Origin: Paenibacillus mangrovi
GTDB lineage: Bacteria > Bacillota > Bacilli > Paenibacillales > Paenibacillaceae
Assembly (NCBI RefSeq): GCF_022898935.1
Contig: NZ_JALIRP010000005.1
Coordinates: forward strand, 372,001-436,000
Reading direction: 5' to 3'
Length of the DNA stretch: 64,000 bases
The notes under the pieces were generated by a model. That model searched no databases, was not told the DNA's origin, and saw nothing but the letters and a program-made list of their open reading frames with translations. Positions 22,050 to 36,197 of this stretch are shown here, piece by piece. The translations under genes and the position numbers were made by a program. Numbering within the stretch: the stretch's first letter is position 1; every line of letters starts with the position of its first letter.

Positions 22050-22108
22050 CAATTTTTCACCGTCACTTATGATAAGGTTCTCCGCGCTGTCTGTAACGGC
22101 AAGTTTCG
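22050..22108 (-). repeat. rlmH-like attachment site E
   Basis: Core CACTTATGATAAGGTTCTCC (22064-22083) reads on the minus strand as G-E-P-Y-H-K and a TGA stop. The left arm is AATTTTTCACCGT and the right arm ACGGCAAGTTTCG. The right half is identical to that of site C over 19 nt. Confidence 0.85.
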
Positions 22109-25763: not shown

Positions 25764-25926
25764 GTATTATCCCCCGAATTCCGCATTTCGCTAAAAAGAA
25801 TATTTTCAGCATTTACGGGAAGAGAGGATGTTATACATCAGGCAATAAACAACTGACAAACTGAAACGATAACGTGTGATGGATAAAACAGAAGCTATAG
25901 CTTACGCAAGAAGTCCAATTAATATC

Positions 25927-25966
25927 AAATCCGGCATGTGATGAGAACTCATCATATGCCGGATTT
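25927..25966. terminator. Strong hairpin downstream of the cwlJ-like gene
   Basis: An 18-nt near-perfect stem (AAATCCGGCATGTGATGA with its complement) has a GAAC loop. It lies 49 nt after the stop of the minus-strand gene at 26015; T residues on the other side are few, so it may serve both directions. Confidence 0.7.
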
Positions 25967-26014
25967 GTTGTTCCGTATAAATGCTTTATTTCCGTCTATT
26001 CGTTTATACAATTA

Positions 26015-29002: not shown

Positions 29003-29010
29003 TCCTATCT

Positions 29011-29027
29011 ATAACGGCAAGTTTTAG
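29011..29027 (-). repeat. Half attachment site J (right arm only)
   Basis: ATAACGGCAAGTTTTAG follows CTATCT after the decarboxylase stop and matches the right arms of sites C and E. The core and left arm are missing, so it is taken as the scar of a lost site 0.3 kb before site F. Confidence 0.55.
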
Positions 29028-29061
29028 GGTCATCCTTTACGGGATGGCCTTTTCCTTTTTT
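29026..29061 (+). terminator. Terminator of the decarboxylase gene, joined to half-site J
   Basis: GGTCATCC and GGATGGCC (one G-U pair) form a stem followed by TTTTCCTTTTTT. Its sequence resembles the hairpin next to site C. Confidence 0.85.
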
Positions 29062-29320: not shown

Positions 29321-29381
29321 AATTTTTCGCCGTCACTTATGGTATGGTTCCCCGTAACGGGTCTAACGGCGAATTTAAAAT
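29319..29381 (-). repeat. rlmH-like attachment site F
   Basis: Core CACTTATGGTATGGTTCCCC (29334-29353) reads on the minus strand as G-E-P-Y-H-K and a TGA stop. Its own arms AAAATTTTTCGCCGT and ACGGCGAATTTAAA are clear inverted repeats. Confidence 0.88.
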
Positions 29382-29400
29382 GGCACCCTGTCGGGTGCCA
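29381..29400. terminator. Hairpin joined to site F
   Basis: TGGCACCC and GGGTGCCA form a perfect 8-bp stem with a 4-nt loop right after the right arm of site F. No T run is present, so its role as a terminator is uncertain. Confidence 0.5.
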
Positions 29401-29466
29401 CATGATTGATGAAGTGTAGACATCCGGCAACGGATTGCGTGTCACACCTGTATAGAGGGTTGTAAT

Positions 29467-31206
29467 TTAAAGCAACTTGATCAGCTCTTCTAGCTCATCA
29501 ATCAATACTTTCGCAAGTTCAAAATCAGTATTTTTCAAAGCCATTTCTATTTTCATTTCAACTGATTTTTTATTTTTTTCAGTTTCTAAATAATCTCGAT
29601 CAAAATGATTAGCATAAATCATCTGTCTAAATTTTCGCATACTCATTTTTCTAATCGTCTTATCGTCAATGATTAACACATAATCCATACCATTTACAAC
29701 AGAATAGAAATCGTGAGAAATCATGAGAATCGCACCTTTATAGTCTTCAATGGCTTTCTCCAGTGCGATTTGTGTATAGGTGTCTAAATGGCTTGTCGGT
29801 TCATCCAGAAGCAATACGTTTGCTTTACTGGCAGAAACTTTAGCTAATTGAAGCACATTTTTTTCTCCACCCGATAAAGATCCTATCTTTTGATTAACGA
29901 TTTCCCCTTCAAAGCCATAGCTTGAAACATGCGATCTAATCTCATCATAAGTTTTAAACCCAGCATCGATGAATTCTTCTAGTATTGTATTAGAATCCCT
30001 TAGCACTTCGCCTTGAACCTGAGATAAATAGCCCACTTTAGCATCAGCATTTATTTCAATTGAATCATGATTATTATTAAAGATATCTCGGAGTAAAGTC
30101 GTTTTTCCGGTACCGTTTGAACCAATAATGGCTACTTTATCCGTAGATTTTATCTCAAAGTTAACATTGTCTAAAAGCAACTCATCAAAGGCAACACTAT
30201 AATGATTGACATTTACAACAATGCTGTCTTCCATTTCTTTATCCATATCAAAACGAATATTCGGTTGCTTAATCTCAACAAATGGCGTTTTAATTCTACG
30301 CGCTTCCAATCTTTCTTGAAACTTAACTCTAGCTTTTAATGCTCTCCCTCTAGATGCATCTGCATTATTAGTTGCGATTTCTCTGAGATTATTGATGATG
30401 TTCTCATTTCTCTCCACTTCTTCATCATCAGCGATTGCGAGTTCTTGTAACTCAATTTTAGTCTGAAGTAATGAGAAGTTATAATCAATAAATCGCCCAT
30501 CAAACTCTTGGATCTCCTTGTTTTCAAGGTGTATAATTTTGTTGAAACAATGATTCAATAGATATCGGTTATGCGTAACAACTAGCAGTGTTCCTTTGTG
30601 AGAATTAATAAGGTTTTTAAGCGCATTTAGGTTTTCAAAGTCCAAAAATACATCGGGTTCGTCCATAATCAATAAGTCTGGACTACTAAGCATTCCCTTC
30701 ATGACTTGAATAAGTTTGAATTCCCCGCTACTCAGATCGGATACCCTAAGATCTCTTAGCTTCATGAGGTTTGCTAGATTTAGTTTCTTAATAATTTTGC
30801 TCTCAAAATCATCCCCACCGATTGAATCCAATGCGTCTAACGCTACTTGATACTTTTCTAATAAAGAATCAATATCCGACGATGTTTCCATTTCAGTACA
30901 AATAGAAGTTATTTCATTTTGTATCTTAATAAATTCTTCCCCTATATATTCAAAAACAGTTGTTTCTTTAGTTGCGTCTAGTTGAGAAAATTGACTTACA
31001 TGCTCAATTTTGTAGGTCGGGTCTATTTCTAGCCTGCCCTCGAACAGATATCTTTCGGGATCCATCAGTATATCTATTAATGTACTTTTCCCATTGCCAC
31101 TTGTTCCTATAAAAGCGCAATGTTGTGCCTCTTCAAGCGTAAATGAAATGTTGGTATATAGTTCTTTTTGCGGGAATGAGAAGGATAAGTTATCAACTTT
31201 TATCAT
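29467..31206 (-). CDS. ABC-F family ATPase, possible ribosomal-protection resistance protein
   Basis: ATG 31206 (MIKVDNLSFSFP) follows AAAGG. The 579-residue protein has two ATP-binding cassettes and no membrane segment: Walker A GTSGNGKST and GSNGTGKTT, signatures LSSGE and LSGGE, Walker B LLIMDEPDVFLD and VLLLDEPTSHLD. The linker between them (about residues 240-320) is charged and helical, as in ABC-F proteins that enter the ribosome E site. Some ABC-F proteins (Vga, Lsa, Msr) confer resistance to ribosome-targeting antibiotics; which, if any, cannot be read from sequence. It is the only intact gene of unit F-G. Confidence 0.9.
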   Translation of the reverse strand: MIKVDNLSFSFPQKELYTNISFTLEEAQHCAFIGTSGNGKSTLIDILMDPERYLFEGRLEIDPTYKIEHVSQFSQLDATKETTVFEYIGEEFIKIQNEITSICTEMETSSDIDSLLEKYQVALDALDSIGGDDFESKIIKKLNLANLMKLRDLRVSDLSSGEFKLIQVMKGMLSSPDLLIMDEPDVFLDFENLNALKNLINSHKGTLLVVTHNRYLLNHCFNKIIHLENKEIQEFDGRFIDYNFSLLQTKIELQELAIADDEEVERNENIINNLREIATNNADASRGRALKARVKFQERLEARRIKTPFVEIKQPNIRFDMDKEMEDSIVVNVNHYSVAFDELLLDNVNFEIKSTDKVAIIGSNGTGKTTLLRDIFNNNHDSIEINADAKVGYLSQVQGEVLRDSNTILEEFIDAGFKTYDEIRSHVSSYGFEGEIVNQKIGSLSGGEKNVLQLAKVSASKANVLLLDEPTSHLDTYTQIALEKAIEDYKGAILMISHDFYSVVNGMDYVLIIDDKTIRKMSMRKFRQMIYANHFDRDYLETEKNKKSVEMKIEMALKNTDFELAKVLIDELEELIKLL

Positions 31207-31244
31207 CGTATTACCTTTCTTTACAAATATAATCATGACTATTA

Positions 31245-31430
31245 TTAGGTGTATTGCACAACATAGATTTTGAGTTTACCGTTGCTAGAGTAACACTGTT
31301 TACAGCCAACTTCAATCCCATTGTATCCCATCCCCGGAATAGGTCGGGTAGGCCCTCCTTTCCTTTTGAATATATCACCGGCGATTTTTGCATACTTGAT
31401 TTGAGTTGTACAATAAAAACTTGCCGTCAC
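31245..31430 (-). pseudogene. C-terminal gene fragment abutting site G
   Basis: The frame opens inside the core of site G (GTG after an in-frame TAA) and reads through to a stop at 31245: FYCTTQIKYAKIAGDIF, then GGPTRPIPGMGYNGIEVG and CKQCYSSNGK. It has no ribosome binding site and was not assigned to a family. It is read as the tail of a gene that lost its 5' end at the site, like the fragments at A and F. Confidence 0.4.
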
Positions 31431-31470
31431 TTATGATATGGTTCACCGTATCATCTAAAGAGCGAATTTT
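31415..31470 (-). repeat. rlmH-like attachment site G
   Basis: Core CACTTATGATATGGTTCACC (31428-31447) reads on the minus strand as G-E-P-Y-H-K and a TGA stop. The left arm is AAAAACTTGCCG and the right arm AAAGAGCGAATTTT, close to that of site D. From 31471 to 31752 no gene or structure was recognised. Confidence 0.88.
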
Positions 31471-31752: not shown

Positions 31753-32697
31753 TCATCTGTTGTTTTGAACAACCATACTGTTAAAGAGCCAGCGAAAGTT
31801 CCATCTGAAATACTGGGGCAGATGCCAATCCTCATAGCCTTCTAATACCCCTTGTTCCAACCAGTAAGACTCTGATTTCCCGCTTGTTACAGCTCTAGAA
31901 ACATAAGCGATCGTTTTCTCCAAAAAGCGTATGACATCCGTGATTCGATCTGAATTAGACACATCTCCGTGTCCCGGAACGACAGTATCGACCTTGAGGT
32001 CTTTTTGAATACGTTTAAGGATGCGTATCCAAGCGTATGGATTACCGTATGGCATGACCGGAATCGTCTTAGTCGATATTAAATCACCAGCGATCAAAGT
32101 TTGCTCTTCTGGAACGTACACAACAGCATCACTTAAAGAATGACCGCCTCCGTAAGATAAAACTTCGATAGTTCGCTTTGTTCCTTGAATAACGAGTTTA
32201 TCTTCAAAGGTTATCGTGGGTATCACCCTGCAAAGGGAAGGGATGGCATCATACAGGGCTCGCTGTACAGAAAGATCATAGTCGATTTCGGTTAGCATGT
32301 GGGGATCCCTTTGCTGTGAACGTACATGATTTAAGCTAGTTATTAACTTTTGAATGTTTTGTTGCATGAGATCAATATTCACTTCGCCCATATCATATAG
32401 CAAATCTCTTGTCCAAACGGTAGATATAAATTCGCTTTTCATAAATTCCTGATTGCCGTTGACATGATCTCCATGAAAATGTGTATTCACTACATATTTA
32501 ACTGGTTTGTTTGTTAATTGTTCAGCAGTATGACGTAACAAAGCACCAGATTGCGGCAGGTTGGTTGTATCCACTACAACGGTTATATCCCCAAGATCAA
32601 TAATTGCTGCATTCCCCAGAGAACCGCTGCCTGGAACCGAAATAGCACCCCAGATACCTTCCGATGCTTGTTGAATCGTGAAATATTCGTTGTTCAT
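31753..32697 (-). CDS. Metallo-beta-lactamase-fold hydrolase
   Basis: ATG 32697 (MNNEYFTIQQ) follows AAAGGGG. The 314-residue protein has the zinc motif NTHFHGDHVNG, GGGHSLSDA, IAGDLIST and PGHGDVS in the expected order. The family includes beta-lactamase-like, quinoprotein relay and lactonase enzymes, so the substrate is open. It is divergent from a MerR gene, with a MerR-type promoter between them, so it is probably induced by the compound it degrades. Confidence 0.88.
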   Translation of the reverse strand: MNNEYFTIQQASEGIWGAISVPGSGSLGNAAIIDLGDITVVVDTTNLPQSGALLRHTAEQLTNKPVKYVVNTHFHGDHVNGNQEFMKSEFISTVWTRDLLYDMGEVNIDLMQQNIQKLITSLNHVRSQQRDPHMLTEIDYDLSVQRALYDAIPSLCRVIPTITFEDKLVIQGTKRTIEVLSYGGGHSLSDAVVYVPEEQTLIAGDLISTKTIPVMPYGNPYAWIRILKRIQKDLKVDTVVPGHGDVSNSDRITDVIRFLEKTIAYVSRAVTSGKSESYWLEQGVLEGYEDWHLPQYFRWNFRWLFNSMVVQNNR

Positions 32698-32738
32698 TGT
32701 TATACCCCTTTTCGTGTTTGTTGTTTCCTGTATTTCAG

Positions 32739-32769
32739 CTAGTAACTTTAACTTACAAGTTAGAGTCAA
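32739..32769 (-). promoter_or_regulatory. MerR-type promoter of the hydrolase gene
   Basis: On the minus strand TTGACT and TACTAG are separated by 19 nt, the stretched spacing typical of promoters activated by MerR proteins. A dyad ACTTTAACTT/AAGTTAGAGT (32745-32766) fills the spacer. Confidence 0.75.
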
Positions 32770-32818
32770 CTAGAAGTCAAGGGGTTTTATAAGGAATAAT
32801 TAGGAAGGATTGTAAACA

Positions 32819-32849
32819 TTGACTTTGGGTTAACTGCAAGCTGTATAAT
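32819..32849 (+). promoter_or_regulatory. Promoter of the merR-type gene
   Basis: TTGACT (32819) and TATAAT (32844) are 19 nt apart, 42 nt upstream of the start codon. Confidence 0.5.
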
Positions 32850-32890
32850 AGTTTTCAATATTAGCATATAAAAGGAGGGGCAGAAATCGG

Positions 32891-33304
32891 ATGCTTACGA
32901 TCAGTCAAGTGTCAGAAAAAACGGGATTAACTCCTTATACGATACGTTATTATGAGAAAATTGGGGTACTTCATGAACCCAAGCGTAGAAATGGAGGGGC
33001 GCGTGTCTACAAAGAAAGCGAGGTTTCATACATTCAATGTCTAAATAAACTAAAAAATTTGGGCTTATCGCTTGAGGAGATTACGGAATTTACTCGTGAG
33101 GGCTGTGTGATGGATAAAATTCAACAAGGGGAGGATCTTTCTGATTATACTCCCACCTTAGAAAGACGGATTGAAATCCTTGAGAAGCATCTGATGGAAC
33201 TGGAAGCTAGGCGGCAAGAAATTGATGATATTATTTCTCTCACCGAAGAGAAACTTGCCCTATACCGAGAACTCACGAAAGAAGTCATAGTAGACACTAG
33301 ATAA
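32891..33304 (+). CDS. MerR-family transcriptional regulator
   Basis: The 137-residue protein starts MLTISQVSEKTGLTPYTIRY, the standard MerR helix-turn-helix, followed by ARVYKESEV (wing) and a long coiled coil (about residues 80-125). AAAGGAGGGG precedes the ATG. The C-terminal ligand part is short and lacks the cysteine set of metal sensors; an organic ligand or redox signal is more likely. It should activate the divergent hydrolase gene. Confidence 0.9.
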   Translation: MLTISQVSEKTGLTPYTIRYYEKIGVLHEPKRRNGGARVYKESEVSYIQCLNKLKNLGLSLEEITEFTREGCVMDKIQQGEDLSDYTPTLERRIEILEKHLMELEARRQEIDDIISLTEEKLALYRELTKEVIVDTR

Positions 33305-33515: not shown

Positions 33516-33572
33516 TAAATTTCGCCCTACTTACGATACGGTTCACCGTAACGCATCTAAATGAGGTTTTTT
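33516..33572 (-). repeat. rlmH-like attachment site H
   Basis: Core ACTTACGATACGGTTCACCG (33529-33548) reads on the minus strand as G-E-P-Y-R-K and a TAG stop (H to R change). The left arm is TAAATTTCGCC. The right arm AAATGAGGTTTTT is the exact inverse of the AAAAACCTCATTT on the distal side of rlmH, so unit H-I has matching ends. Confidence 0.88.
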
Positions 33573-35706: not shown

Positions 35707-35740
35707 AAAAACCTCATTTATTTATGGTAAGGTTCCCCCC
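35707..35740 (-). repeat. Attachment site I: 3' end of rlmH with distal arm
   Basis: The last codons of rlmH (G-E-P-Y-H-K and TAA) at 35718-35738 are the intact parent of the repeat. AAAAACCTCATTT on the distal side is the inverse of the right arm of site H. Everything beyond this point to lower coordinates is accessory. Confidence 0.85.
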
Positions 35741-36197
35741 GATTTATCTTCACTGCGCGATAAATCTGCTCCGTGAGCACCAGCCGCATCAGCTGATGCG
35801 GCAAGGTCATGCGCCCGAAGCTCAGCTTCTGCTGGGCGCGGCGCAGCACCTGATCGGAGAGCCCGTGGCTCCCTCCGATCACGAACACGACATGGCTCGT
35901 CCCGTAGGTGCCGAGCCTGTCGAGTTCGGCGGCCAGCTCTTCCGAGCTCCACAGCTGGCCGCCGATAGCGAGCGCGATGACATGCGCGCTCTCTTTAACA
36001 TGCGCGAGGATGCGTTCGCCCTCGCGCTCTTTAACGATCGACACCTCAGCATCGCTCAAGGTGTCCGGGGCCTTCTCGTCCGCGACCTCGATCACCTGGA
36101 ATTTGATGTACGGGGTCAGACGCTTCGCGTATTCCTGGATGCCCTGCACCAAATACTTCTCCTTCAATTTGCCAACGCCAATCAATTGAATCAACAT
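35718..36197 (-). CDS. rlmH: 23S rRNA (pseudouridine1915-N3)-methyltransferase
   Basis: The 159-residue protein is a full-length SPOUT methyltransferase: [20 protein letters not shown] at the start, [15 protein letters not shown] (SAM knot) and the C-terminal INRGEPYHK. It methylates pseudouridine 1915 in helix 69 of 23S rRNA. It is the well-known target gene (orfX) of staphylococcal SCC elements, and here too its 3' end bounds an accessory island. Its GC-rich sequence contrasts with the AT-rich DNA just downstream. Confidence 0.97.

Follow-up and report, generated by a model that had tools for sequence, protein, structure and literature searches.

The window, by which we mean the whole 64,000-nucleotide stretch of the Paenibacillus mangrovi contig that was analysed, carries rlmH on its minus strand (35718..36197), and the 3' end of this gene (35718-35735, GAACCTTACCATAAATAA) anchors an array of units. 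Approximately 4.5 kb downstream of rlmH lies a unit with one gene of substantial length, which encodes an ABC-F ATPase (29467..31206, minus strand). This unit is bounded by an rlmH-proximal att-like site, GAACCATATCATAAGTGA (31427..31444, minus strand, in a repeat block at 31415-31470), and a distal one, GAACCATACCATAAGTGA (29333..29350, minus strand, repeat block 29321-29376), and both sites re-encode the last rlmH codons (G-E-P-Y-H-K-stop). With up to 2 mismatches allowed, the core GAACCNTAYCATAARTRA is matched nine times in the window (3100, 6452, 9516, 10600, 22063, 29333, 31427, 33527 and 35718), always in the same orientation on the minus strand and never on the plus strand. The match at 22063..22080 (minus strand) is the next site on the far side and bounds a 7-kb unit beyond the ABC-F unit. 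Throughout the genome, the 18-bp core has 13 matches at the same tolerance compared with 0 for the reversed pattern, and a 21-bp repeat has three matches against a mean of 0.02 in shuffled sequence. The att-like sites that flank the ABC-F gene are real. Inverted arms, TTCGCCGT/ACGGCGAA, can be read by eye around the site at 29333, and are less clear at the other sites. A further att-like site, GAACCGTACCATAAGTAA, lies away from rlmH, near the start of another contig (G000:C1:1734-1751). Within the 7-kb unit, an inverted repeat with 25-nt arms (88% complementary, 2-nt gap) is found at 25921-25972 beside an endonuclease IV gene. A short terminator-like repeat at 29005-29060 of the window (stem AGGGTCATCC/GGGATGGCCTT) recurs in many genomes of the genus, several times near rlmH.

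The ORF enclosing the ABC-F gene (29467-31236, minus strand) is intact, and its likely start at 31206 gives a protein of 579 aa composed of NBD1, Arm helices (approximately residues 90-128), a linker hairpin (239-305, tip approximately 281-283), NBD2 and a C-terminal two-helix extension (539-578). Two ABC_tran domains are present, with the NBDs joined by the linker in one chain, and the next longest ORF of the unit has 61 aa; the preliminary description of the unit as holding one intact two-domain ABC-F ATPase gene is therefore correct. NBD1 carries the motif DEPDVFLD, which is invariant in 18 aligned sequences of the family and conserved to at least 98% per residue in 118 members, whereas the equivalent motif in the compared ABC-Fs outside the family is DEPTNHLD, DEPTNYLD or DEPTTHLD. 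The distance from Walker A to the signature is 124 residues, as in EttA (124) and close to PoxtA2 (126), compared with 63 in MsrE and 43 in VgaALC, so the Arm has been kept. The linker of 90 residues compares with 82 in OptrA, 86 in PoxtA2, 78 in EttA, 89 and 107 in the paralogues L007 and L004 of this genome, and 110-114 in VgaALC, MsrE, MsrA and LsaE (114 in MsrE). The extended linker that is characteristic of ARE1-5 only is thus not seen in this protein; OptrA is likewise described as being without it in PMC6723617.

The sequences around the gene were compared over 116 loci, comprising the window, the top 80 among 477 related stretches and 35 from hand-chosen regions, which take in known rlmH-linked copies, so that fractions of the 116 are no population estimates; three duplicate loci were removed before the analyses of the upstream block, leader, att sites and tree. 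An upstream block of approximately 105-110 nt (31207..31317, minus strand) is common to most family members in both genomic contexts. It holds TTGAAG-N17-TACTCT, which conservation alone marks as promoter-like, together with the Shine-Dalgarno sequence AGAAAGG; a strict promoter pattern is present upstream of the gene at 71 of the 116 loci, and a consensus promoter scan of the locus did not call the element. Downstream of the ABC-F stop codon, ahead of the distal att site, lies a terminator-like hairpin of 9 pairs, 6 of them GC (29380..29401, minus strand); three such hairpins occur in 2.5 kb against a shuffled mean of 1.3, which is not significant by itself. Drug-inducible 5' leaders are frequent, not universal, among ARE ABC-Fs. 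A short in-frame ORF in the window, MLCNTPNNSHDYICKER, ends in the Shine-Dalgarno region upstream of the gene. Attenuation by a leader peptide is not supported: an ATG in that frame, ahead of the stop in the Shine-Dalgarno region, is kept at 37/116 loci, and the stop is absent at 21/116. RNAalifold returned no consensus fold for the upstream regions of the family loci (0.0, with column-shuffled controls also at 0.0), and no Rfam family was found in the window between 22000 and 36300.

The array downstream of rlmH is modular. Next to the ABC-F unit, on its rlmH side, is a separate att-bounded unit (31753..33304) with a gene for a metallo-beta-lactamase-fold hydrolase (MBL; 31753-32694, minus strand) and a divergent gene for a MerR-family regulator (32891-33304, plus strand), followed towards rlmH by a weaker att-like site with 2 mismatches (33527..33544, minus strand) and an aminopeptidase unit. 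Most of the length of the MBL/MerR unit is found again, at 86-94% DNA identity, in 17 other genomes of the genus. In 12 of them it lies within approximately 55 kb downstream of rlmH, and 11 of these (all but G026) either lack the ABC-F gene or carry it elsewhere.

The arrangement resembles that of staphylococcal pseudo-SCC and composite SCC elements, in which tandem units after rlmH are bounded by copies of the rlmH end (PMC8407400). The staphylococcal site given there, GAAGCATATCATAAATGA, is identical to the two sites bounding the ABC-F unit at 15/18 and 16/18 bases. As described in the same source, pseudo-SCC elements are without known ccr genes, and the ABC-F unit is without a recombinase on its contig: the PF07508 matches of this genome lie on contigs C1, C27 and C29 and none on C28, the window contig, the same holds for PF00239, and no tyrosine integrase was found when C28 was searched for the three families (large serine recombinase, resolvase and tyrosine recombinase). 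The parallel with staphylococci that had been drawn at the outset therefore applies to the rlmH target and the sites, and fails for the recombinase. The unit also differs from staphylococcal SCC in that it contains one gene, and in that its cargo is an ABC-F gene rather than mec or a known resistance gene. In Paenibacillus pinistramenti, the rlmH islands are composite and tandem, and are reported in PMC10061031 to have two large serine recombinases; the ABC-F unit, unlike these islands, has one gene and no recombinase was found on its contig. Pairs of large serine recombinases lie within approximately 22 kb downstream of rlmH in at least 8 genomes (G072, G068, G011, G053, G044, G057, G017 and G087). 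The tandem pairs near rlmH (L172, L173, L174, L175, L176, L177, L178 and L182) are of 515-584 aa, except for one L175 partner of 363 aa, and in arrangement they look like ccrA/ccrB. The large serine recombinases of the P. mangrovi genome are at most approximately 33% identical to these rlmH-near pairs; because they are this distant and lie on other contigs, mobilisation of the ABC-F unit in trans is something we infer.

The ABC-F gene is patchily distributed. It was found in 68/100 genomes of the genus, its own included (E <= 1e-120), with no match in the other 32, whereas rlmH is present in all 100, split in a few. Among the 68 carriers, 11 (G000, G004, G016, G026, G034, G054, G072, G079, G088, G091 and G092) have the gene within approximately 35 kb downstream of rlmH on the same strand, and among single-contig genomes with the gene, linkage within 35 kb holds for 3 of 25, which speaks against rlmH being its usual home. 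The family can do without cassettes. Where RlmH shares 94% identity or more with that of the window, 3 of 11 genomes carry the gene and 8 have no match; where RlmH is at most 77% identical, 4 of 13 carry it, at 84-85% identity. The identities of ABC-F and RlmH to the window copies do not correlate (rho 0.14, p 0.26, n=64, leaving out the own genome and those with split RlmH matches only, namely G022, G041, G043, G048 and G063). Across genera, the copies of Paenibacillus sp. RC67 and Cohnella terricola are 97.5% identical at the DNA level, and G016 holds two copies from different clades. At 72% identity, the gene also occurs in two genomes from other families of the phylum (G331 and G105) without an att-like site nearby, which indicates that it has not spread by cassette alone. 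The gene is thus mobile and has moved horizontally between related bacteria, and the earlier view of the unit as an rlmH-linked, att-bounded, mobile single-gene cassette is upheld by sites that exceed the shuffled and reversed controls, by the patchiness of the gene and by the recurrence of short units at other loci. An origin as a known plasmid gene was rejected, the best plasmid match being at 48% (Acetoanaerobium), as was one as a known phage gene, with 27-30% identity among 15 listed of 80 phage records.

In a tree with reference ABC-Fs and those of this genome, and without Sal, VmlR, CplR, YdiF, YfmM and TaeA sequences, the window protein and its relatives, down to an Acetoanaerobium protein at 48%, form a clade of their own (100/100, stem 1.89). 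This clade lies outside the Msr/Vga and Lsa groups, the group of OptrA with L003 of this genome, that of YbiT with L008, and the Uup/EttA and YheS groups, and stands beside PoxtA2 and this genome's L002 and L005 with weak support (82/80). The protein thus falls inside none of the characterised ARE clades sampled in the tree; nor is it a near-universal member of a housekeeping clade, as it is outside the EttA/Uup, YbiT and YheS groups and occurs in 68 of 100 genomes. No NCBIfam ARE cut-off was reached (NF000355, 286.9 against 380; Vga, 228.7 against 725; CplR, 223.4 against 780; Msr, 201.5 against 680). With NF000355, two relatives score 293 and 306, the nine other ABC-Fs found in this genome 384-524 and PoxtA2 495. 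As all nine of these paralogues pass the cut-off, this model does not separate resistance from housekeeping proteins, and the low score marks the window protein as remote from ordinary ABC-Fs. In these sequence comparisons, the drug resistance that the preliminary description had expected appears without backing, the protein belonging to no sampled ARE clade, scoring below all ARE cut-offs and having no long linker of the ARE1-3 type. Clustering with housekeeping ABC-Fs, which had been named as the result that would overturn that expectation, is borne out half-way: the protein has no firm place among them, and none in the ARE clades.

The predicted structure (mean pLDDT 87.9) has a long hairpin with a tip of approximately three residues; the alignment behind it took in the paralogues of this genome, Msr- and Lsa-family proteins among them, and an earlier model built on 13 close relatives (pLDDT 49) was set aside. 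PoxtA is the top Foldseek match of the model (E 2.2e-39), and VgaL, VgaA-LC, LsaA, VmlR2, Uup and PoxtA align to it with VIA-align at Z 31-34. As modelled, the fold matches that of ribosome-bound ABC-Fs, resistance and housekeeping alike.

These observations are best explained, on what we regard as even chances, by a one-gene SCC-like (pseudo-SCC) cassette with an accessory E-site ABC-F that would relieve ribosome stalls. In this cassette, which lacks a recombinase of its own, two copies of the rlmH end enclose the upstream block, the ABC-F gene and the terminator-like hairpin. Site-specific recombination would have inserted it into the tandem array behind rlmH or exchanged it there, and fuller elements would presumably have provided the large serine recombinases in trans. 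By analogy with other ABC-Fs, the protein would act at the ribosomal E site and relieve stalls there; E-site action, trans mobilisation and drug protection are the parts of this account that we infer. A drug-induced stall, as for PoxtA and OptrA, and a physiological one are about evenly likely, the former slightly ahead because the ABC-F is accessory and moves horizontally in a genome with many other ABC-Fs. The case for resistance, which we place near even, would draw on the accessory, mobile and genus-wise patchy nature of the gene and on the PoxtA-like short-linker architecture. Patchy presence within a genus is a hint used in predicting AREs (PMC6723617), and variable presence within the genus together with horizontal transfer is what we found for the window ABC-F. 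The likeness to PoxtA and OptrA consists of the kept Arm, the short linker (86, 82 and 90 residues in PoxtA2, OptrA and the window protein) and mobility. In contrast to these proteins, the window protein has DEPDVFLD in NBD1 and its own C-terminal two-helix extension, and it shares 23% identity with PoxtA in the Foldseek alignment and sits in a separate, long-stemmed clade. According to PMC6723617, FAF1 and FAF2 are listed from Firmicutes only and were predicted to be AREs from patchiness within genera; the window family is also patchy within its genus. TaeA of Paenibacillus sp. LC231, reported in the same source to confer tiamulin resistance in E. coli, is likewise an ABC-F from a Paenibacillus; it is of Uup type, whereas the window protein lies outside the Uup/EttA clade, which holds L006 of this genome (TaeA is absent from the tree).

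An accessory translation factor with no part in resistance, which would resolve physiological stalls (difficult nascent chains, cold or stress) as do YfmR, YkpA and EttA and would travel as a fitness gene, is a serious alternative to which we give roughly one chance in three. With the Arm kept, the 90-residue linker is nearer to those of the EttA, Uup and YbiT types (77-81) than to those of Msr, Vga and Lsa (110-114); the family is widespread, often without att sites; and the native ABC-Fs of B. subtilis are stall resolvers (PMC11381351). However, 32/100 genomes of the genus and 8 of 11 close relatives have no match to the gene, the protein belongs firmly to no housekeeping clade, and seven other ABC-Fs of the genome also stay below every specific ARE cut-off. 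An anti-phage role was rejected, as PADLOC gave ATPase-like matches only, the best being mad3 at 133 bits.

For the cassette itself, the alternative is that a native chromosomal ABC-F gene sits in the variable rlmH region among repeats that are old scars, and is not cassette cargo. No recombinase of the three families was found on the window contig, no att-like site was present within 8 kb of the gene at 48/116 loci (68/116 have at least one), and, although the genes beside the ABC-F gene mostly vary between loci, small sets of unlinked loci have common neighbours. We nevertheless consider this alternative unlikely. Att-like sites within 8 kb at the 116 loci are codirectional with the gene in 171 cases and reversed in 5, compared with 1 codirectional and 6 reversed for the reversed-pattern control, and short bounded units of 2.1-2.9 kb were found at 10 of the 116, the window included; others are in P. 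eucommiae (L024), P. selenitireducens (L035) and P. contaminans (L052) and at the second copy in G016, and the longest other ORF in the short units is of 40-74 aa (124 aa in L029). The five rows nearest to the window copy, which is itself placed to its group only, are att-bearing loci in other species, and the carriers closest to the window in RlmH have copies in another well-supported clade. In a tree built from the DNA of the 116 copies, the label for presence or absence of att-like sites switches 14 times, with at least 8 switches forced by well-supported branches, against a shuffled mean of 37; the label is clustered on the tree, yet has changed repeatedly. Of the 477 related stretches, the 80 best comprise 78 from Paenibacillus or Cohnella, one from a Paenibacillaceae bacterium and one from a Bacillus sp., and 19 of these 80 loci have rlmH within 8 kb upstream on the same strand. 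The ABC-F gene is more AT-rich than its flanks at 111/116 loci.

The window gene and its motifs are intact and under purifying selection. In both halves, the key residues of Walker A and of Walker B with the catalytic Glu, and the His of the H-switch, vary little or not at all among 118 family members, and dN/dS against six equal-length relatives is 0.17-0.34 (two pairs of unequal length were left out). That the NBD1 signature of the window copy, LSSGE rather than the consensus LSGGE (30721-30735, codons 158-162), marks a decaying copy with lost NBD1 function is very improbable: residue 160 is as in the window in 1% of the 118 members, but the frame is full-length, the remaining key residues are intact, dN/dS is low and the Lsa-family protein of this genome, L010, also has a non-consensus first-half signature (LSNGE).

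Rather tentatively, we propose in a broader form of the cassette reading that a new class of ribosome-protecting ABC-Fs, with DEPDVFLD, a short linker and a helical C-terminal extension, may owe part of its spread in Paenibacillaceae to integron-like one-gene cassettes at the rlmH end, mobilised in trans by rlmH-linked serine-recombinase pairs. Such cassettes would parallel SCC-borne resistance in the environment, beyond the Staphylococcaceae, and would form a reservoir of a new drug-protection factor. Composite rlmH-linked islands in Paenibacillus (PMC10061031) and predicted orphan resistance ABC-F subfamilies (PMC6723617) are already in print; among titles and abstracts of the open-access literature, with subscription papers outside the scope, none was found on this ABC-F or its cassette. 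If ribosome protection is its function, many Paenibacillaceae carry a resistance factor that has escaped notice, since its scores fall short of each NCBIfam cut-off applied and annotation by such models passes over it. Should it have no protective role, this would be an unusual instance in which a stall-resolving factor travels as a cassette, and would help to ask which natural stalls accessory ABC-Fs relieve. In either case, recombinase-less units bounded by rlmH ends, as in staphylococcal pseudo-SCC, also exist and shuffle in a distant family. On other contigs, the P. mangrovi genome encodes an Msr-family ABC-F ribosomal protection protein (L009, G000:C27:145786-146565; 740.3 against a cut-off of 680) and an Lsa-family one (L010, G000:C1:914679-915269; 818.8 against 750), so resistance-type ABC-Fs are not foreign to this genome.
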